43,585 nucleotides of DNA, taken from IMG/VR virus record IMGVR_UViG_3300017613_000031, positions 1 to 43,585 of that record; one strand, given 5' to 3'. Positions 349 through 42,756 of the stretch are shown here, one piece after another. Position 1 is the stretch's first letter, and each line of letters begins with the position of its first letter. The notes beneath the pieces are model-generated. The model saw only the letters and a program-made list of their open reading frames with translations, had not been told where the DNA came from and did not search any database. A program made the translations under genes and the position numbers. The stretch is from a virus.

Positions 349-377
349 TTGACACCACCCAGAGAATCACCTAGAGT
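349..377 (+). promoter_or_regulatory. Sigma70-like promoter, copy B of duplicated leader
   Basis: TTGACA at 349-354, a 17-bp spacer and TAGAGT at 372-377, followed by AAGGAG and the ATG at 403. It matches copy A over about 57 bases with only a one-base gap and a substitution, so promoter, untranslated leader and ribosome site were duplicated as a unit. Confidence 0.6.
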
Positions 378-402
378 ACTTATAGAAACAAGGAGAACTA
401 CA

Positions 403-1748: not shown

Positions 1749-2003
1749 ATGCTTACTAAAGAACAAGTGAACTGCCTCGTAAAAGGCAAAGACAGCAAGA
1801 TTGCTACAGTTACATTCATCAAAGCTGATGGTACTGAGCGTGTAGTTAATGGCCTCTTTAAGCCAACAAGCAAGATGGTAGGCTCAGACCGTGGACTAGC
1901 ACAAGGTGAAGCTATGAAAGCCCGTGGACAGGTTCCTATCTGGGAGATTGCACAAGGGAAGTGGAAGAGCTTCTATGCGGATCGGGTGGTTAACATCACC
2001 TGA
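1749..2003 (+). CDS. Small protein, possibly SH3 beta-barrel like (84 aa)
   Basis: Starts behind AAAAGGAG. Residues 19-39 read as a beta hairpin with the pattern VTFIKADGTERVVNGLF, followed by a Ser/Gly linker and a C-terminal WEIAQGKWKSF strand. This layout resembles small phage proteins of the DUF2693 type, described as SH3 beta-barrel folds, which often carry 'FxKxDGTxR' near the start. The match is from memory and weak. No enzymatic motif. It is the last of a run of tightly packed small genes before the sigma-like gene. Confidence 0.6.
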   Translation: MLTKEQVNCLVKGKDSKIATVTFIKADGTERVVNGLFKPTSKMVGSDRGLAQGEAMKARGQVPIWEIAQGKWKSFYADRVVNIT

Positions 2004-2260: not shown

Positions 2261-2848
2261 ATGACTGATACTGAAATGCTTAAGATGTGTAAGGCCCTAG
2301 CTGGTCGCTACAATGACACTAACATCTATGACGACCTAGTAAGTGAGGGCATTCTAGCCTGCTATGAAGCCAAGGAAAAGTATGGCGACAAGCTGACTAA
2401 AGAAAGATGCTTAGGTTCAGCTAGGAAGGCTATGCACGAGTATGCAAATGTAGGTACAAAAGCTGTTAAAGTGCCAAGGACTGATAGATCAGGTCTAGTT
2501 GCAACAGCTATACACAATGATGAGTACCCGACAGACCTTGATGGCATAGATAAAACTACCCTAAGCCTGCTTGTAGCAGCTATGATCAACGACACCGTAC
2601 CAGTAGAAGAGTCTGGGCTGTCAGTGCCTAGTCACGCAGAGGAGTTTGAGCGTGTTCAACACAATTTGTACTTGTTGAATAAGATCAAGAAAGCTGCACG
2701 AAAAGATGACTGGGACGTAGTGCTTGACATGGTTTTTAATGATAAAGGTCAACAAGTTAAGGCAGATGAGATGGGAGTATCTCACCAGTACATCGACCAA
2801 CAACATAAGAGGGTAAAGGCTATAGCTGAAAGGGTTTGTAACAAATAG
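2261..2848 (+). CDS. Sigma-70-like RNA polymerase sigma factor (putative)
   Basis: This 195-aa protein has the layout of a small sigma factor. Residues 22-42 (YDDLVSEGILACYEAKEKYG) resemble sigma region 2.1-2.2, where sigma binds core polymerase. A KVPRT segment near 70-74 resembles the start of region 3. Residues about 168-192 (ADEMGVSHQYIDQQHKRVKAI) look like the region 4 helix-turn-helix that reads -35 boxes. The stop codon at 2846-2848 touches the 41-bp promoter that recurs three times in this genome, so it may be the factor that reads it. The overall similarity is my judgement by eye; it could instead be a helix-turn-helix regulator. Confidence 0.6.
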   Translation: MTDTEMLKMCKALAGRYNDTNIYDDLVSEGILACYEAKEKYGDKLTKERCLGSARKAMHEYANVGTKAVKVPRTDRSGLVATAIHNDEYPTDLDGIDKTTLSLLVAAMINDTVPVEESGLSVPSHAEEFERVQHNLYLLNKIKKAARKDDWDVVLDMVFNDKGQQVKADEMGVSHQYIDQQHKRVKAIAERVCNK

Positions 2849-2900: not shown

Positions 2901-2982
2901 TAAACTTAAGGTTTCCTACTTACAGTATTAAACTCAACCCACTAGTAGTAGAGTTAATATCTAAAGTTAATACTTACAGTAT
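2901..2982 (+). repeat. Leader repeat of the replication operon
   Basis: The untranslated leader between promoter copy 1 and the primase gene. The part at 2931-2982 begins AACTC, contains ACTAGTAGTAGAGTT (a stem AACTC/GAGTT) and ends CTTACAGTAT. It aligns with the two 52-base repeats downstream of promoter copy 3 (42075-42126 and 42010-42061, read on the - strand). The part at 2901-2930 also aligns with the promoter-proximal leader of copy 3. Confidence 0.6.
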
Positions 2983-3010: not shown

Positions 3011-4594
3011 ATGGCAGAAAGAGGTAAGGGTCCATGCCCGTATGAAAGTTGTGGGTCGTCAGATGCCTTTTCGTGGGACGACGATGGCTTTGGTAAGTGT
3101 CACTCTTGTGATCGGGGATACCCATCAAAGGCAAAGAAATTTAGTTGGGCTGCGGAGAGATACCCCACCAATGGAAATAAAGGAGATGTTATAGATATGG
3201 CTAGTGCGTTAGACTTCGTACCTAAGAATATTAAAGAGACCCACACAGGGGAATATAAGACTACTCGCGGTGTAGCATCCCGTGTGATGGAAGAGTTCGG
3301 AGTAATGACTTACGGGGATAAGCAGAAGTATGTTTACCCGTCAGGTGGTGTGAAGGTCCGTACACTCAAAGAGAAAGGCTTCTATGCAGAGGCTGGGTTC
3401 AAGGGGGATGAACTGTTTGGTATGAACCTGTTCACCTCTGGGTCAGCTAAGATGGTAACAGTCACTGAGGGGGAGCTAGACGCTATGTCAGTCGCCCAGA
3501 TGCTGCGGAACAGCTACATCAACCCAGTGGTCTCTCTGCCATCTGCTACCCCCTCTAAGAAGCTCTGGGACAACTGCCATGACTGGTTGAACGGGTTTGA
3601 TAAGATCATCCTATCAGTGGACAACGATGAAGCTGGTAATGCTGTTGCTGACCGTATCTCTAAGCTGTTCCCTAGTAAGGTGTATCGTGTAGATCACAGC
3701 AAGTACAAGGACGCTAACGAGTTCCTTATGGCTGATGCTGACGAAGAGTTTAAGAGTGCTTGGTGGGCAGCAAAGAAATATGTACCAGAGAACATACTGA
3801 ACACCACAGAACAGTTCCTGTCGCTCTACAGTGACACACCAGAGCACCAGTACGTGCCAACAGGTATTGAAGACCTAGATGCTAAGATACTTGGGTTCAT
3901 GCAGGGTCACTTTACTGTTATCAAAGCACAGACTGGTATCGGTAAAACTGAGGTGATGCGGTTCATAGAATACAACATGCTAAAAGCTGGCATTCCTATC
4001 GCTGCATGGCACCTAGAAGAGACAAAACTACGTAGTGTCTTAGGTCTTGTGTCGTATCACCTGAGTGATAACCTGACTAGGCGTGACCTAATTGAAGAGA
4101 AAGATAAGAACGAAGAGGTGCTGCAAGCTATCACTGACTTAACTAAGGATGAAAACTTTTACCAGTTCTACCTTAGTGATGGTGATGGTGGTGATGCCCT
4201 TATAGAACAGATCAGGTTCTTTAGTCAGGCTGCTGGTTGTAAGTTTGTGTTCTTTGAGCCTATCCAAGATGTGGTAGTAGGAAGCTCAGAGGAGAGCAAA
4301 GAGAGCATGTTAGCTGACTTGTCTATCCGGCTGTCTAAACTGGCTGCTGAGTTGAATGTAGGCATTATCACTATTGCTCACACCAATGAGAGTGGAGACC
4401 CTAAGTACTGTAAAATGATCGGCCAACGTGCCTCTGTGATTATTAACCTTGACAGGGACAAAGAATCAGAGGATTATGACGAAAGAAACACAACGTATTT
4501 ACGTGTTGAAAAGAATCGCCCATGTTCTGAGGAAGGACCAGCGGGTAAGATGAGGTTCAACACTGATACGTTCACACTGAGAGAGGTATACTAA
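3011..4594 (+). CDS. T7-like bifunctional DNA primase-helicase
   Basis: At 527 aa this resembles T7 gp4, which unwinds the fork and makes primers. Residues 9-33 form a zinc ribbon (Cys9, Cys14, Cys30, Cys33). The TOPRIM primase core shows VTEGELDAM with Glu153 and SVDNDEAG with Asp204 and Asp206. The helicase has a Walker A motif AQTGIGKT at 306-313, a hydrophobic strand ending FFEP as a Walker B candidate, and a late ITIAHTNE segment typical of the DnaB/T7 helicase H3-H4 region. The ATG follows AAGGAGAG. It is the first gene of the replication operon behind promoter copy 1, with the polymerase close downstream. Confidence 0.93.
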   Translation: MAERGKGPCPYESCGSSDAFSWDDDGFGKCHSCDRGYPSKAKKFSWAAERYPTNGNKGDVIDMASALDFVPKNIKETHTGEYKTTRGVASRVMEEFGVMTYGDKQKYVYPSGGVKVRTLKEKGFYAEAGFKGDELFGMNLFTSGSAKMVTVTEGELDAMSVAQMLRNSYINPVVSLPSATPSKKLWDNCHDWLNGFDKIILSVDNDEAGNAVADRISKLFPSKVYRVDHSKYKDANEFLMADADEEFKSAWWAAKKYVPENILNTTEQFLSLYSDTPEHQYVPTGIEDLDAKILGFMQGHFTVIKAQTGIGKTEVMRFIEYNMLKAGIPIAAWHLEETKLRSVLGLVSYHLSDNLTRRDLIEEKDKNEEVLQAITDLTKDENFYQFYLSDGDGGDALIEQIRFFSQAAGCKFVFFEPIQDVVVGSSEESKESMLADLSIRLSKLAAELNVGIITIAHTNESGDPKYCKMIGQRASVIINLDRDKESEDYDERNTTYLRVEKNRPCSEEGPAGKMRFNTDTFTLREVY

Positions 4595-6557: not shown

Positions 6558-6559
6558 CT

Positions 6560-6574
6560 GTAACAATTTGTTAC
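6560..6574 (+). promoter_or_regulatory. Perfect palindrome abutting the -35 box (operator candidate 2)
   Basis: GTAACAATTTGTTAC, seven-base perfect arms around a single T, lies immediately upstream of TTGCAA. It corresponds to 2838-2852. At the - strand copy 3 only the promoter-side half site (GTTAC) is kept. Confidence 0.5.
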
Positions 6575-6610
6575 TTGCAAAATGGGCGAAAAGTGCCTTA
6601 TATATAAGTA
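6570..6610 (+). promoter_or_regulatory. Conserved 41-bp phage promoter, copy 2
   Basis: TTGCAA at 6575-6580, a 17-bp spacer and TTATAT at 6598-6603, in the same conserved block as copies 1 and 3. The leader to the SSB gene is only about 22 bases long, with AAAAGGAAAA as ribosome site, and lacks the leader repeats found after copies 1 and 3. It gives the SSB/nuclease genes their own strong start. Confidence 0.75.
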
Positions 6611-6632: not shown

Positions 6633-7187
6633 ATGGCTAAACATAAAATGGATATGGTTCTGGAATGGGCCAAAGTGTTTGAGGAAAACTTGGATAAAGG
6701 TAATCCAGACTCCTCACAGAAGTGGCTACGAGACCTCGCAAAGTCTGGTGGTAAAGCTACAGTTAAAGCGTACTTTACTTCGGAAGACCAGATTGACACC
6801 CTTACTGGTGTTGGATTTGAGCGTATGGCTCTTAACCCAAATACTGGCGAAGAAGTTGATCGCATCAAGGTTGGTGAAGAAGCCTTTGGTATCGGTAAGT
6901 ACATTAACCTGACCCGTAAGTTCTCTGATGTAAAGGAAATCAAGGACCGTAAGACTGGTGAGTTTGTCGATGTAGAGTTTGGTGGCCTACCTAAGGTTAT
7001 TGACTTTCGTGACCCTGACAACAAACGGTATTGGTCGTATGAAGAGGACGGACCCATTGGTAATGGTACAGAGGCTAAAGTACAGTTTGACCTATACAAG
7101 GGGCGTACACTTCGCCTAGAGGCTATTGGTGTGACTAAGCTAGTAGAGTTTGTCCTAGAAGACGCTGATGATGAGTTTACAGTATGA
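6633..7187 (+). CDS. Single-stranded DNA-binding protein, T7 gp2.5-like
   Basis: 184 aa, close in size to T7 gp2.5 (232 aa). The segment GPIGNGTEAKVQFDLYKGR followed by RLEAIGVTKLVEF is typical of the OB-fold of gp2.5-like proteins. The protein ends in an acidic tail (EDADDEFTV) with an aromatic residue near the end, the feature by which these SSBs contact polymerase and helicase. It has its own promoter copy 2, which fits the large amounts needed, and it sits between the polymerase and exonuclease genes. By-eye assignment; family confidence is good. Confidence 0.82.
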   Translation: MAKHKMDMVLEWAKVFEENLDKGNPDSSQKWLRDLAKSGGKATVKAYFTSEDQIDTLTGVGFERMALNPNTGEEVDRIKVGEEAFGIGKYINLTRKFSDVKEIKDRKTGEFVDVEFGGLPKVIDFRDPDNKRYWSYEEDGPIGNGTEAKVQFDLYKGRTLRLEAIGVTKLVEFVLEDADDEFTV

Positions 7188-35397: not shown

Positions 35398-38285
35398 GCT
35401 GCACCTCCGTCAGTGATTGATGCCCAGCCAGCCGTAAGCAGATCAGCCCTAGCCGTAGTAGGCGCACCCGCAGAATATTTGGACAGTCCGAAGTCTGGTG
35501 TCAGGGCTATTTGCAGGGCTGGTGTAACTGCCACCTGTGCCTCCCAATTAACCAAGAGGCTGTCATAGTCCAAGGCTCCGTTTGGAACACTGGTCATAAA
35601 GCTGTTTAGGTCGCCTGTGCTATTCAACCCTGTGATGTCGAAATCTTCTGGGCCGACAAGAGAGGTTAGGCTAGAGCAGGTGTAGAACATGTATGTCATA
35701 TTCGAAACCAGAGCAGTATCAAAACTGGACACATCAAGAGAGGTTAGGCTCGTGCAGTTGAAGAACATGGCATACATACTCGTAACCAGCCCAGTATCAA
35801 AACTGGACAGATTAAGAGAGGTTAGGCTTGAGCAGCCGTAGAACATGAGCAACATACTCGTAACCAGCCCAGTATCAAAACTGGACAGATTAAGAGAGGT
35901 TAAGCCAGCGCAGTCTCGGATCATATTGCTCATATTCGTAACGGCAGAAGTGTCTGTGGTTCCTACTGTAAACTCAGTCATATTCGAGCAACCATAGAAT
36001 GCTTCATCAAGACGGGTCCAGCCGACATCGCCAAGGTTCAGCACCTTCGTGACTTTCAGTTTATCCCCGCCATTGTTGAAATAGATATTAGGGAACGTGC
36101 CTCTGATCCTGACGACATAATCCCCTGCGGTGGCATAGGTGTGCGCAAGGCCAGCATCATTGTAGGCAGAGATTGAAGATACACTACCATCACCCCACTC
36201 AATACCAGCGTCAAAGGTTCCTACGTTCCGACAAGGAATAGTGAATGTCTCGTCAGCCCCAGTGGTCGTGATGAGCATGGCAAATTCGTCAGTGAAGGTA
36301 AGTGCAGAAGCCTCTTCTATGCCTGTGTCGCCTATGTCTACGGCCCATGCACGGAATAGATTGATATTCAGTGCTAACTCACTACCACCAGCGGCGAACT
36401 TACCAAAGATCAAATAAGGGGTTGTAGCAGAATACGAGAATGAACCAGTGCTTTCTGTACCTACTACCCCACTAAAAGCTAACTGCCCTGCGGAGGTTGT
36501 CACTCTCCACGCTAGATTTTGCTCACTTATTCCATCTGCAATTGCCCCATCTACACCAAGAGTCTGGTTTGACCCGGCAGTACGTATAAAGCCTGACGTG
36601 TTTGAAGTGCCAGTCCTAAGAACTCCGCCACGGTTGTTATTATCTTGATAAAAAGAAAAGAACCTCTGACTGCCGCTAAAAACCCCCGTTGCCTTCATAG
36701 CGTAGGACATTGCCGATGTGTTCCATGTAGAAAGGTCAGCCGCTAGGATTTTCATAGTCTGTGCTGAGCGGGTGACGGTACTGCCTGCGGTTGGGATGTG
36801 AGAACTGATTGAGGATGCGGCAACGATGTCCACGAAACCTGCGTGGAAGTACTCGCCGCCTGTCCCTGCGTAAGATTCCCTGCCGCGAGTGTCATAAGAT
36901 GGGGTGGCAGAAGAATATGACCCTAAGATTAACGGTGTGGTGGTATCAGTAACCGTTGTGCTGCCTGAAATCCAAATCCTGTAAAGCCCATTACCAAGGT
37001 CTACAATCCCACTGCTGGTTAATGTACCGCTAGTTGTTCCAACATCCGTGTCGACCTGCGTACCTGCTGCAAGATCGAACACTGCTGCAAAAAAGTTCTC
37101 ACCGCTGGGGGAAAGTGTCATACCAACATATTGTTGGTCCCCATAAGAAACCACGGCAGAACAGACATAATTTGTTCCAGATACACCGCTTATATTGTAG
37201 AGTAGGCCATGTGTTTCATTGGTAGTATCCGTGACCTCAACCTTGGTCAACGAGGTGTTGCCGTCTGGTCCCGTACCGTTAGCCGCCGTCAATGTGAAGC
37301 TACCCGCCTGACTCATTGACCAAGTGGTAGTAAAGTCATTACTCTCAGTGCAAAGATTAGTAGCCTGCGCACTTTCCACCTGTGCGTATGGGCCAGCCCA
37401 AGTAGAGCCGTTGTAGACGTAGTTAGCCCTACGCATATATGACGCTGCACTGGTTGTAGGGACGTAGCTTTCCAGCCCTGTTGTTTCGTTGTGGGGGTTG
37501 TCCTGCATGCCGCCTAGCGAATTGTTAAACAAGCAAATCGCATTAACGTGTAACTCTGCTGTACCGTCACATGTGACCCCAGCGATAGAGTTATCAGCGG
37601 CACTTATTTCGACATAATACCTACCCAATACGTCAGCACCAGCAGAATTATGTGGGATGTATATCAACCACCAACCATCTGTTGCGGCTGAAATCGTAGG
37701 GGTTCCACTCATTGTGTTTGTTCCAATGACCCCGCTGTCAAGGTTAAAGTAACACCCCCCTCCAGTCGTCATTGATCCATACGAAATAAACATCCATGTG
37801 TGAGAACCCTTCTTAACAAGAAGTTGTGAGCCAGATTCCCCATCAGGGAAGGTTTGGACGCGATAGGCCGCTACTCGATTTGTCCCACCAAGACCATCAT
37901 CGACAACTCTAAATCCTGTACCAGTAAGTCCGTAAATTGCACTTTCTGTCGAGGCTGCGGATAGACCGCTACCAAAACCTACATAATCTGTATCTGTTTC
38001 AGAGTTTAGGAATAAATTATGCGCAGCCCACTTCAACGCACCATCGCTATCCGTGACAGTGGACAAGCCTGTTGTGTCGTAGTCAATCAGGTCAGCCTCA
38101 GCTACCTCAACGCTGTTTTTCTCGTAGTAGCCCGCACCATAGGCCCCAGCCGTTGAGCCGAAATCTGCTATGATCGGGGGTTCAAATCCGTTGGCCGCGT
38201 AAATGGATGCAACAGCACCACCAACTCCAAATACCTGAGTAAGGTAGGTTGTGGTCCTTAGGGCTATAGATAGAGAGGTCGTCAT
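35394..38285 (-). CDS. Large adhesin-like structural protein with BspA-type leucine-rich repeats
   Basis: 963 aa, the longest protein here. Most of it is Ser/Thr/Gly-rich beta sequence with lectin-like stretches (GCYFNLDSG, WWLIYIPHNSAG; LSTWNTSAMSYAMKATGVF). Near the C terminus are 26-residue units of the DUF285/BspA type (LTSLNLSSFDTGLVTSM..MF..C), encoded by 78-bp DNA repeats around 35,630-35,990. Before them a PKD-like segment (TYATAGDYVVRIRG) is visible. BspA repeats bind host surfaces in bacteria and protists. Starts behind AAGGTG. Lying between portal and protease, it may be a head fibre or other surface fibre. Confidence 0.75.
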   Translation of the reverse strand: MTTSLSIALRTTTYLTQVFGVGGAVASIYAANGFEPPIIADFGSTAGAYGAGYYEKNSVEVAEADLIDYDTTGLSTVTDSDGALKWAAHNLFLNSETDTDYVGFGSGLSAASTESAIYGLTGTGFRVVDDGLGGTNRVAAYRVQTFPDGESGSQLLVKKGSHTWMFISYGSMTTGGGCYFNLDSGVIGTNTMSGTPTISAATDGWWLIYIPHNSAGADVLGRYYVEISAADNSIAGVTCDGTAELHVNAICLFNNSLGGMQDNPHNETTGLESYVPTTSAASYMRRANYVYNGSTWAGPYAQVESAQATNLCTESNDFTTTWSMSQAGSFTLTAANGTGPDGNTSLTKVEVTDTTNETHGLLYNISGVSGTNYVCSAVVSYGDQQYVGMTLSPSGENFFAAVFDLAAGTQVDTDVGTTSGTLTSSGIVDLGNGLYRIWISGSTTVTDTTTPLILGSYSSATPSYDTRGRESYAGTGGEYFHAGFVDIVAASSISSHIPTAGSTVTRSAQTMKILAADLSTWNTSAMSYAMKATGVFSGSQRFFSFYQDNNNRGGVLRTGTSNTSGFIRTAGSNQTLGVDGAIADGISEQNLAWRVTTSAGQLAFSGVVGTESTGSFSYSATTPYLIFGKFAAGGSELALNINLFRAWAVDIGDTGIEEASALTFTDEFAMLITTTGADETFTIPCRNVGTFDAGIEWGDGSVSSISAYNDAGLAHTYATAGDYVVRIRGTFPNIYFNNGGDKLKVTKVLNLGDVGWTRLDEAFYGCSNMTEFTVGTTDTSAVTNMSNMIRDCAGLTSLNLSSFDTGLVTSMLLMFYGCSSLTSLNLSSFDTGLVTSMYAMFFNCTSLTSLDVSSFDTALVSNMTYMFYTCSSLTSLVGPEDFDITGLNSTGDLNSFMTSVPNGALDYDSLLVNWEAQVAVTPALQIALTPDFGLSKYSAGAPTTARADLLTAGWASITDGGAA
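35630..35990 (-). repeat. 78-bp tandem repeats inside the adhesin gene
   Basis: At least three consecutive units, with GTATCAAAACTGGAC beginning at 35716, 35794 and 35872 (period 78). Two units are almost identical, including AGATTAAGAGAGGTTA. Flanking units are more diverged. Each encodes one 26-residue leucine-rich repeat, so the number of repeats can change by slippage or recombination without losing frame. Confidence 0.85.
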
Positions 38286-39997: not shown

Positions 39998-41389
39998 TTA
40001 GGATAGACCCTTGCTGCTACTATAAACAAGGGACAGTTGTGGTTTAGCGTAGCCGTTAAGTGAGAGGTCAGTTATTGCCCATACCAGAGCGTCTAATCTA
40101 TCAGGTGAACCAATCGACCCTAGTGGTTCCCATGTTCTCATTTGAGTTTCAAGTTCGTTGAGGTTATTACCGTGTGGGGGGTTTACTACATGCTTAACAA
40201 GACCACGTTCATACAATGCTGATACTGGTTCTGCTCTAGCGTACTTTCCTCTTGAGGCTCTAACTGCCCTGTAAGGAACTGTTTCATCTTCACCATGAAT
40301 GGTAGTCTTAACCATGTCACCGCCTTGGTTAACTTCAGCAACAATACGGTCAGCTTCGTATTCATGGTAGAGCTTAATGGCTTTAGCTGCCCAAGCTTGG
40401 GGCAGTAGTTTATCTGTGTAATCACCTAAGACGTATGCTATGCCATTGACATCAATGCCAGCGACCATAATACCTGTCATGTCACTCTCAGCATTAGCTG
40501 TAACAGCAGGGTCAAGGGCGACAACAATACGGGTAAGGTCAGGTACATCCTCTTGCTTAACTGATGCGCTCTCAAGCATCTCAGTGGTCCATAGAGCACC
40601 TTCAGCCTCTTCTAGCACTTCAGCGTAAAGCTCTTGTCTACCAAGGCGTGTACCTTCATACTGGTCTCTAACAGCCTTCAGGTATGTACCAGCCAAGTTA
40701 GCTGAGTTATCGAAGGTAGAACCAGTAGTAATAACTGTAGTAGGCTCTTTTAGTATCTGACGGATCAGCTTAGTAGGCTTAGGTGTAGTAGTGACCATGA
40801 TGCGAGGGTGTTTCCCTAGACGCATACAGAACTGGAGCATAGACCAAGTGTCCATATCCTTGTTCCAAGCAGCAGTCTCATCGCACCAAGCTAATTCAAA
40901 CTGTGGACCACGTAGACGTTCAGGTTCCTCTGCTGAGAAGAACTGTACTTGAGCACCATTCTCCCAAGTAAGTGACCTCTTAGTGGGCGACCATTCAGGG
41001 AAGCCTAGAGCTTTACCTTTAGTGGTTCTATCACCCTTCCAGCAGACAGAGAGAAAACCAGATTCTCCCTTTACCATAACTCGTTCAATATCTGAGTTAG
41101 TAGAAGCTACAGCAGCAATACGCTTAACACCATTCTTTACGTTCCAGCGTACCCATTCAACTCCAGCACGGGTCTTACCAAAACCACGACCAGCATTAAT
41201 AAACCAAGTGTTCCAGTCAGCACCATCTGGTTGTAGTTGGTTATCTCTAGCCCAGAAGGTCCAGTCATGCTTTAGTTCTTCTAACTTTACTGGTCCTAGT
41301 GTGTCTAATACCTCTTTAGCCTTCTTGGGGGGTAAGTCCCTAAGTGTCTGTGCTGTTATCAGTCTCTTCTTCATCTGTGCTAATACCAA
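39998..41389 (-). CDS. Terminase large subunit
   Basis: 463 aa with both motor and nuclease parts. Walker A GRGFGKT at 67-73, Walker B ending LAWCDET (Asp170, Glu171), and a coupling motif near VTTTPKP. The nuclease domain begins ALDPAVTANAESDMTGI and contains VAEVNQGGDMV and DRLDALVWA with acidic residues for metal binding. The open frame starts at a TTG (41389) inside the small subunit gene; the first ATG is at 41374. The enzyme cuts and packages DNA into the prohead. Confidence 0.93.
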   Translation of the reverse strand: MVLAQMKKRLITAQTLRDLPPKKAKEVLDTLGPVKLEELKHDWTFWARDNQLQPDGADWNTWFINAGRGFGKTRAGVEWVRWNVKNGVKRIAAVASTNSDIERVMVKGESGFLSVCWKGDRTTKGKALGFPEWSPTKRSLTWENGAQVQFFSAEEPERLRGPQFELAWCDETAAWNKDMDTWSMLQFCMRLGKHPRIMVTTTPKPTKLIRQILKEPTTVITTGSTFDNSANLAGTYLKAVRDQYEGTRLGRQELYAEVLEEAEGALWTTEMLESASVKQEDVPDLTRIVVALDPAVTANAESDMTGIMVAGIDVNGIAYVLGDYTDKLLPQAWAAKAIKLYHEYEADRIVAEVNQGGDMVKTTIHGEDETVPYRAVRASRGKYARAEPVSALYERGLVKHVVNPPHGNNLNELETQMRTWEPLGSIGSPDRLDALVWAITDLSLNGYAKPQLSLVYSSSKGLS

Positions 41390-41750
41390 GTAGTGCAGCC
41401 AGTGTGTCTACAGCACTTTCGTCCATGTCAGGGTCTGTATCTTGTTCAACTTCAATGTTAGTCTGAGTAGGCGACCAACCACCTTTAGAGCGTAAGAACA
41501 ACTCTTGTGACTTGAAGTCACCATCCATAGCTTGATCAATAACCTTCTTACCTACAGAGCCATTGATCTTAGCTCTCTCAGCAAAGATGTAGTCACCATA
41601 AATCTTGTACAACGACGACAGAGATTTAGGAGCACCCTGTAAGTGCTGCATACTAGCAATCATATCACGTATGCCAACTCCACCCTCAATACATGTGAGG
41701 ATGTGTTTTTCTACGTTCTTGCTGTAAGGGAGTTTGGGGATACTAGCCAT
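41340..41750 (-). CDS. Terminase small subunit (putative)
   Basis: 136 aa, first gene of the structural operon, overlapping the large terminase gene by about 50 bases. The N-terminal half (VEKHILTCIEGGVGIRDMIASMQ...PKSLSSLYKIYGDYIFAERAKINGSVGKKVIDQAM) has the helical, helix-turn-helix-like look of small terminase subunits that pick phage DNA. The C-terminal third is very acidic (DTDPDMDESAVD, DEEETD). The ribosome site is weak. Identified mainly by place and layout. Confidence 0.75.
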   Translation of the reverse strand: MASIPKLPYSKNVEKHILTCIEGGVGIRDMIASMQHLQGAPKSLSSLYKIYGDYIFAERAKINGSVGKKVIDQAMDGDFKSQELFLRSKGGWSPTQTNIEVEQDTDPDMDESAVDTLAALLGISTDEEETDNSTDT

Positions 41751-42009
41751 GATGTAGTGGGTCTCTTGTTATTATTACCGCGACCATAAAGTGTAGCTTA
41801 ACCTAAAGTGGGTAGTCCGTATCAGCTCTAGAGATTAAACTCTACCAACCTACACTCAGCGGCAAGATCATCAACCCTGTAAATAAACTGTAATTGTTCA
41901 TCTTGGTTGTGTGTAGGTAGGAAGAATCTCTATTTCCCTGAGTAATGGAATAGCGACCATTATAAAGGTATAAGCTCTGTCTCAGTTGTAGATGGGAAAT
42001 TATAGCTAC

Positions 42010-42061
42010 ATACTTTAAGTTTTAACTCTAGATATTTGACTCACTCACTAGTAGTAGAGTT
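42010..42061 (-). repeat. Leader repeat, copy 3b
   Basis: 52 bases, identical to 42075-42126 with a 65-base period. On the - strand it begins AACTCTACTACTAGTGAG and ends AACTTAAAGTAT. AACTCTA and TAGAGTT inside form an inverted repeat. Aligns with 2931-2982. Confidence 0.8.
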
Positions 42062-42074
42062 GATTTCTATAGCT

Positions 42075-42126
42075 ATACTTTAAGTTTTAACTCTAGATAT
42101 TTGACTCACTCACTAGTAGTAGAGTT
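42075..42126 (-). repeat. Leader repeat, copy 3a
   Basis: 52 bases, identical to copy 3b. A further diverged copy lies nearer the promoter at about 42,150-42,205 (- strand ACTTAAAGTTTCTCACTTACAG, then ACCACTAGGAAGTAG), matching 2903-2950 of the replication leader. Confidence 0.8.
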
Positions 42127-42218
42127 CTTATCTTAAGCTATTCTACAGTTCTTTTATCTACTTCCTAGTGGTGTAGTTCAATTCTGTAAGTGAGAAACTT
42201 TAAGTATGTAAAAGCTCT

Positions 42219-42259
42219 TACTTATATATAAGGCACTTTTGAGGGATTTTGCAAGTAAC
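42219..42259 (-). promoter_or_regulatory. Conserved 41-bp phage promoter, copy 3 (structural operon)
   Basis: On the - strand: GTTACTTGCAAAAT, five variable bases, AAAAGTGCCTTATATATAAGTA, the same as copy 2 outside the five-base stretch. -35 TTGCAA and -10 TTATAT are separated by 17 bp. It points leftward to the terminase gene and the whole late operon. Confidence 0.75.
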
Positions 42260-42756
42260 TTTTTTCAACTATTTTACATGTCGTTGATAACTAATGATTC
42301 TTTTTTTCTTGTCGTTTCGGAACTAAAGAGGGTGATTACAACTGTGAGTTGTACAGTAAGTAATTTTTTGTCTTGTAGCATCTTCGATGCGCCGTCCTAC
42401 GGACTATGATTTATAAGTGTAAGATGGCCAAAAGTAATTTTTTGTCTTGGATTTATATGGGTAAACCACCCCCACACCGAATCACCCGCCATGATTCCAA
42501 GGGTCCCACTAGCGGGAATGTCAAGGGGTATCCTGTAAGAATATTCCTTTGTGTGACCTTTGTGCATCACCCTATGTGTTGTGTCTTTTGGGTAACACCT
42601 AGTGAATTTATTGAGTGTTTCCAAAGTATTACTTGACGCAGGATTCGGGCAGGCCCTTACATTAAGCAATGATTCGTTATTCGTTATACTACATAACAAT
42701 TAACCAACCCGCCAGAATACCTAAGCCTAGCAGGTTGATAGTGTTACCTTATATCA
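42260..42756. promoter_or_regulatory. Noncoding control region upstream of promoter copy 3
   Basis: About 500 bases with no strong gene. It contains a perfect palindrome TACAACTGTGAGTTGTA (42337-42353), an 18-base direct repeat AAGTAATTTTTTGTCTTG (42358-42375 and 42432-42449), two small hairpins GCATC/GATGC and GTCC/GGAC (42378-42404), and a tandem ATTCGTT (42672-42685). These could be binding sites or part of a replication or packaging region; nothing decides among them. Confidence 0.4.
42397..42567 (-). CDS. Weak candidate small gene (56 aa)
   Basis: An ATG at 42567 opens 57 codons on the - strand, ending HLTLINHSP. A longer frame to a TTG at 42699 exists. No proper ribosome site is seen and the frame on the opposite strand is also open, so coding is uncertain. 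The sequence around VWGWFTHINP has no family I know. Treat as possible only. Confidence 0.2.
   Translation of the reverse strand: MHKGHTKEYSYRIPLDIPASGTLGIMAGDSVWGWFTHINPRQKITFGHLTLINHSP

Follow-up and report, generated by a model that had tools for sequence, protein, structure and literature searches.

The two long operons of the phage genome analyzed here open with related leader arrays, which are built of short two-fold symmetric words and lie immediately downstream of two of three copies of a promoter; none follows the remaining copy. The two leaders match each other within a phage, and a gene for a sigma-70-family factor ends just before the first promoter. Since the sharing exceeds chance and recurs in other phages with different sequences, the leader very probably has a function in both operons. 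Its units are better explained as protein-binding dyad sites in DNA, a reading to which we give about even odds, than as a folded control RNA, and the RNA reading of the array is weakened by the tests described below. A true structured RNA, designated E3, is present in the leader of the structural operon, outside the array.

Genome organization and relatives

The analyzed stretch, referred to as the window, spans the 43,585 bases of one IMG/VR virus record. It comprises two opposed gene blocks, one for replication on the + strand and one for packaging and structural proteins on the − strand; a tRNA search of the window found none. The first gene downstream of the early leader encodes primase-helicase (3011–4594, + strand; PHROG 239, 1.3e-97). 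The structural operon begins with a small-terminase-like gene (41340–41750, − strand), which is assigned as terS by its position preceding TerL and has relatives with up to 83% identity. The nearest named relative is Roseobacter phage CRP-6, with amino-acid identities of 70% for the primase-helicase, 53% for the terS-like protein and 26% for the 195-aa protein encoded at 2261–2848. The window phage is a member of the CRP-6-type group of roseophages, phages reported to be widespread in the oceans (PMC6918029).

A search of IMG/VR for close relatives with the exact promoter of the window returned none, and a search with a 16-base word matched nine contigs. Leaders of both operons were collected via relatives of primase (80 loci kept), TerL (80), and terS (44). 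Two further features of the window are a WYL_2 (Sm-like SH3 barrel) protein encoded at 1749–2003 (+ strand; E 1.9e-6), conserved at 66–87% in six of the eight relatives with a match, and three tandem repeats with 78-base spacing at 35658–35942 (− strand), inside a 963-aa tail-like gene.

Promoters and the phage sigma factor

The three promoter copies share 85–87% across 46–52 bases. Copy 1, with a TGTAACA upstream element (2837–2888, + strand, core 2843–2888), is 87% complementary over its core to 42219–42264 and 85% identical over 52 nt to copy 2 (6559–6610, + strand), which was found by repeat comparison. Copy 3, the promoter of the structural operon (42213–42264, − strand, core 42219–42264), was found as an inverted-repeat match to the other two. 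Repeat comparison agreed with the earlier note that matching leaders follow copies 1 and 3, while copy 2 has no such unit or array 3' of it. The promoter sequences vary from phage to phage. A TGTAACA-type partial dyad occurs just upstream of the promoter at 2837–2851 and 6559–6573 (+ strand); at copy 1 it lies at the sigma gene's stop codon and is kept in the early leaders of relatives. An exact 43-base duplication at 45–87 and 349–391 (+ strand) contains a sigma-70-like promoter (TTGACA-17-TAGAGT), and the promoters in it are probably early and read by the host polymerase.

The 195-aa product of the gene at 2261–2848 (+ strand) is a sigma-70-family factor, as evidenced by family alignment, profile and fold matches. 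No relatives were found by tblastn with peptide patterns from this protein, and the family was assembled from the gene upstream of primase in the relatives. Regions 2 and 4 of the sigma-70 family are recognized via these relatives together with the profile and fold matches. In the ten family members, Sigma70_r4 (Pfam) is matched with values down to 3e-14 in relatives, and region 2 is in place at scores below the cut-off; the window protein alone has a weak region 2 match (E 0.16) and no r4 match. A profile search of the PDB with the family matched the sigma factor of 8x6g (3.1e-10, positions 8–184). The AF2 model (pLDDT 80.4, pTM 0.40) found sigma subunits as its best Foldseek matches (E 2e-5, TM about 0.4). 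The gene is present in 8 of the 11 records searched and in 8 of the 9 with a primase match, and its product is much less conserved (26–42% identity) than the neighboring primase and polymerase (62–75%, among the matches listed). A fast-evolving sigma factor is encoded in a group whose relatives have been described as having no RNA polymerase of their own: for the related cobaviruses no phage RNA polymerase is reported in the available parts of PMC6775973 and PMC6918029. The 2261–2848 product likely reads all three promoters. A phage sigma-like protein redirecting the host RNA polymerase has been described for phiEco32 and 7-11 (PMC8948821), which resemble the window phage in encoding a sigma factor and belong to another phage group.

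Leader units of the window

The leaders were divided into elements A, B and C, a parsing of our own. Early element A (2904–2929, + strand) carries the words ACTTAAGG and ACTTACAGT and matches late element A (42180–42205, − strand) in the same direction, with 0 of 500 dinucleotide shuffles doing as well, so that a proximal segment is indeed common to both leaders, as the earlier note had remarked. Element B (2931–2955, + strand) is an AACTC...GAGTT box with ACTAGTAGT, and element C (2956–2989, + strand) contains ACTTACAGT at 2972–2980. The whole late array (41995–42222, − strand) includes two B-C units, 42075–42126 and 42010–42061, which are identical at 52 of 52 positions and form the core of a 65-base tandem duplication. 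This array can fold into one long imperfect hairpin (−58 kcal/mol, z −3.87, 0/200 shuffles).

The same note had described 2931–2982 and the two late units as related 52-base sequences lying in one orientation relative to transcription. Aligned without gaps, the early unit agrees with the late ones at 34 of 52 positions. Its 3' half (about 2956–2985) is identical to late element C at 27 of 30 positions in the same direction (0/500 shuffles). Its 5' half (about 2932–2958) matches when inverted (score 37, 0/500 shuffles), whereas in the direction given by the note it scores 21, a value reached by 38 of 500 shuffles and not beyond chance. Because the 5' half matches the late units only when inverted, common orientation is true for half of the unit. 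The inverted match is also seen as same-strand repeat hits in the window, and box B is present in both orientations. The AACTC/GAGTT and AACTCTA/TAGAGTT sequences are found in the units as described, and the likeness of the early and late leaders, beyond chance in the window (0/500 shuffles), recurs across the group with other sequences.

Arrays of dyad words across the group

In this group the leaders, which are about 69% A+T, are arrays of ACT-NN-AGT dyads approximately 12 bases apart, with ACT-NNN-AGT as the form in the window phage. Downstream of the promoter the relatives share the order A block, B box, C block, and some phages have more than one copy of B-C. The words of the relatives are mostly ACTTAAGT, ACTATAGT, ACGTAAGT and similar, and their spacing peaks at 12 nt (41 pairs, with 12 pairs at 13 nt and 7 at 11 nt). 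In CRP-6, a phage in culture (44.9 kb), the only clusters of at least three words are the two leaders, at 4134–4200 and 42084–42165. The window words, ACTTACAGT, ACTTAAAGT, ACTAGTAGT and ACTACTAGT, have three central bases and therefore form no cluster under the two-base word rule; 8 of the 31 ACT-NNN-AGT words of the window fall in the two leaders, which make up about 0.8% of the sequence.

Symmetry within the words was assessed in a set of 57 leaders, reduced to 42 by removal of redundancy on shared 10-mers; the late CRP-6 piece and some of the early ones start slightly upstream and include promoter bases. Of 151 words, drawn from 41 of the 42 non-redundant leaders, 143 have TA or AT at the centre, with 99.3 expected if the letters were independent (0/10000 permutations, figures that overstate independence because the 151 words are related by descent). 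Two-fold symmetry is thus a property of each site, as in an array of dyad sites; owing to the three-base centre of the window words, this test concerns the relatives. Both kinds of centre, TA and AT, are present in 21 of the 41 leaders, and neighboring centres agree 37 times, with 39.2 expected, which is no more than chance. A dyad of its own in each word and no match between neighbors are as expected of independent sites in double-stranded DNA. Asymmetric words are biased in direction, CGTAAGT being present in 12 leaders and its reverse complement in 2.

The early and late leaders of a phage resemble each other more than those of different phages. In eight phages, the match score in the same direction was 49.0 for own pairs and 26.1 for cross pairs (0/5000 permutations), and in the opposite direction 39.1 and 25.3 (4/5000). 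For G002 and G009 the own early-late match in this direction of transcription is low (27 and 23 in the same direction), and G010, whose two leaders share about 25 bases by eye, was excluded from this test. The excess of own over cross matching indicates that the group as a whole has shared leaders, whose sequence each phage has rewritten. A lack of any conservation downstream of the relatives' promoters had been named in advance as the observation that would speak against the shared leader; what is conserved there is the type of word and its arrangement, while the sequence itself varies by phage.

Tests of RNA pairing in the leaders

Covariance analysis of leader alignments, proposed earlier as a check on the control-RNA reading, gave no support to it: coupling was absent, folds were clade-specific and compensatory pairs were few. 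In 97 pairs of neighboring words with their flanks, corresponding to local hairpins A1:A2 and C1:C2, no coupling beyond shuffles was found. The consensus folds of six clades differ, and pairs with double changes number 5/22, 2/26, 2/23, 1/29, 0/37 and 1/11. The CTAG-loop hairpin of box B is borderline (17/300). Across the relatives, compensatory helix changes marking the 52-base units as a conserved put-like or nut-like RNA were not found, while the E3 control passed. Terminator-like sites inside the operons were not above chance.

Folding of the 42 leaders is on average better than that of shuffles (mean z −2.05, range about −6.7 to +1.8) and suggests a long hairpin in many of them, with long stems in L098, L190, L193 and L151. 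Values of z near or above −1 were obtained for CRP-6, L072, L074 and the early leader of the window (z −1.20, 24 of 200 shuffles as good). Both A and C blocks were recognized by the word rule in 24 of the 42 leaders, and in these the A and C blocks of one phage pair with each other better than with those of other phages (complementarity, 1/5000). Their direct similarity is equally strong (2/5000), and without L151 and L098 complementarity weakens to 47/5000, with direct similarity at 16/5000. A single long A:C hairpin was therefore discarded as evidence of RNA pairing. In the same kind of test E3, the positive control, behaved as an RNA helix, with complementarity at 0/5000 and a much weaker direct similarity (56/5000). 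Comparison of sense and antisense folding and counts of G-U versus A-C did not discriminate even for E3, which gave z −2.45 on both strands and counts of 20 vs 17, and were for this reason left out of the argument.

What stood of the control-RNA reading is that the leader is a functional-looking, non-chance feature; the units as a conserved RNA structure were not supported, given the lack of coupling and the dyad carried by each word.

E3, a structured RNA upstream of terS

E3 (41840–41930, − strand; covariance model, 61.5 bits) is a true structured RNA in the 5' UTR of terS. It is located between the late array and terS, outside the 52-base units, and is not common to the replication operon. 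A control-type RNA is in fact present in the structural leader, beyond the region described by the earlier note. The outer stem of E3 is free in sequence, its internal loop reads AAC/CYGAU and a further stem reads CAAGAY/RUCUUG. When 31 sequences were folded with RNAalifold, 7 of the 11 resulting pairs showed double changes, and the covariance model found 67 copies in 66 sources. In the 57 distinct rows of these 67, pairing occupies 91.7% of cells (72.6% shuffled), covariation scores 0.514, compared with 0.173 after shuffling and no more than 0.148 after sliding (0/500), and double changes occur in 9 of 11 pairs, all counts that lean towards the model because the alignment was fitted to it. 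The outer stem taken without model fit gave 0/5000 in the own-versus-cross test (28 of 40 rows after redundancy removal). Covarying helices, the mark of a structured RNA, are thus present in E3, a strongly supported new family of RNAs preceding terS.

Exactly one E3 copy is located 5' of terS in each of nine records of nine. A second, inverted partial copy at a contig end (L176, 1–74, − strand) is possibly an assembly artefact. A search of cobaviruses (Cobavirinae) with the E3 model, comprising CRP-4, CRP-5 and two ICBM2 parts, found none, and Rfam matched nothing in the window at the gathering cut-off, with sub-threshold hits only under an E-value setting. Element F, CTACCCAC-TTTAG (41800–41830, − strand), is conserved 3' of E3 in most relatives. 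As AATCTGnnCTACCCAC-wTAAGT, it lies 73 to 154 bases after the E3 start in many of them, and in other relatives it is upstream of the late promoter.

Judging by its position, E3 most likely acts on how the terS mRNA is translated or processed. The staphylococcal cabRNA (PMC10686824) is likewise a structured phage RNA of the terS region; it lies within the terS-terL genes and its sequence varies from one phage to another, whereas E3 is located in the 5' UTR and has invariant loops and covarying stems. The open-licence literature on transcription of cobaviruses and CRP-6 and on terS-leader RNAs, in its available parts, contained nothing on the leader or E3, and a term search of the available parts of PMC6775973, PMC6918029 and PMC12629253 found neither "promoter" nor "sigma."

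A proposed role of the leader arrays

In the model we favor, the 52-base units are the B and C elements of an A-B-C array, whose sites are short, have two-fold symmetry and lie just downstream of the start of two operons most probably opened by the phage sigma factor. A candidate phage-specific dimeric DNA-binding protein would bind the array in the initially transcribed DNA and could set the output of both operons together, for example by holding the polymerase back and then releasing it. Such binding to double-stranded DNA, like the sign of its effect on the operons, is inferred. Several observations argue against DNA sites: the words sit in transcribed DNA, no binding protein was found, many leaders, including the late leader of the window, fold better than shuffles, and the directional asymmetric words fit an RNA motif too, although common descent of the leaders also explains them. 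The ORF at 6633–7187 was considered as a candidate regulator and set aside, its product being presumably similar to single-stranded-DNA-binding proteins by its motif.

A possible but rather doubtful explanation is that the leader acts as RNA: both long mRNAs would begin with an element to which a phage protein, or RNA polymerase itself, binds in antitermination of the nut or put kind. This accounts for the single leader at each operon start and its absence after copy 2, the internal promoter, for the colinearity of the early and late leaders in the direction of transcription, for several leaders folding well beyond shuffles and for own A:C pairing exceeding cross pairing; what still favors it most is that asymmetric words are biased in direction. 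It is at odds with uncoupled local stems, with A:C direct similarity equal to complementarity, with folds that differ by clade and contain few compensatory pairs, with the borderline hairpin B, with dyads located within words and none between them, and with operon-internal terminator-like sites at chance level. In lambda, nut sites acting with N represent one shared element per long operon. The same arrangement is seen here, and a conserved boxB-like hairpin is missing from the leader folding tests. The put elements of HK022, folded RNAs that suppress pausing and termination (PMC9378689), are likewise leader elements near phage operon starts, 3' of promoters, while the units described here have dyad words and no covarying stems.

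Three other explanations were considered. Origins of replication of the T7 type are AT-rich and promoter-driven, and the A+T content of about 69%, the dyad repeats as possible initiator sites and the location just downstream of promoters, in one case directly 5' of the primase-helicase gene, would suit such an origin; with both arrays at mRNA starts, this is unlikely. The long hairpins might serve RNase III processing or mRNA stabilization, as the late leader of the window (−58 kcal/mol) and the long-stemmed leaders named above could suggest, but the fold is not conserved and is poor in CRP-6, L072, L074 and the early leader of the window, making this role quite unlikely. It is very unlikely that the words are decoy −10 elements pausing the polymerase with the phage sigma factor: ACTATAGT resembles CTATAGTA of the −10 region, but similarity between a promoter and its own leader does not exceed that of cross pairs (1007/5000 in the sense direction).

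Taken with the DNA-site reading, these data tentatively suggest a leader code private to each phage, in which dyad DNA arrays in the initially transcribed region of sigma-dependent operons would be rewritten together and read by a candidate co-evolving phage protein, alongside E3 as a new family of RNA regulators controlling the packaging and structural operon. The paired rewriting of both leaders in each phage represents an unusual concerted change in cis-regulatory DNA. For the CRP-6-type phages, the analysis offers a testable scheme of transcription, with a sigma factor of their own, three promoters and two tagged operons.
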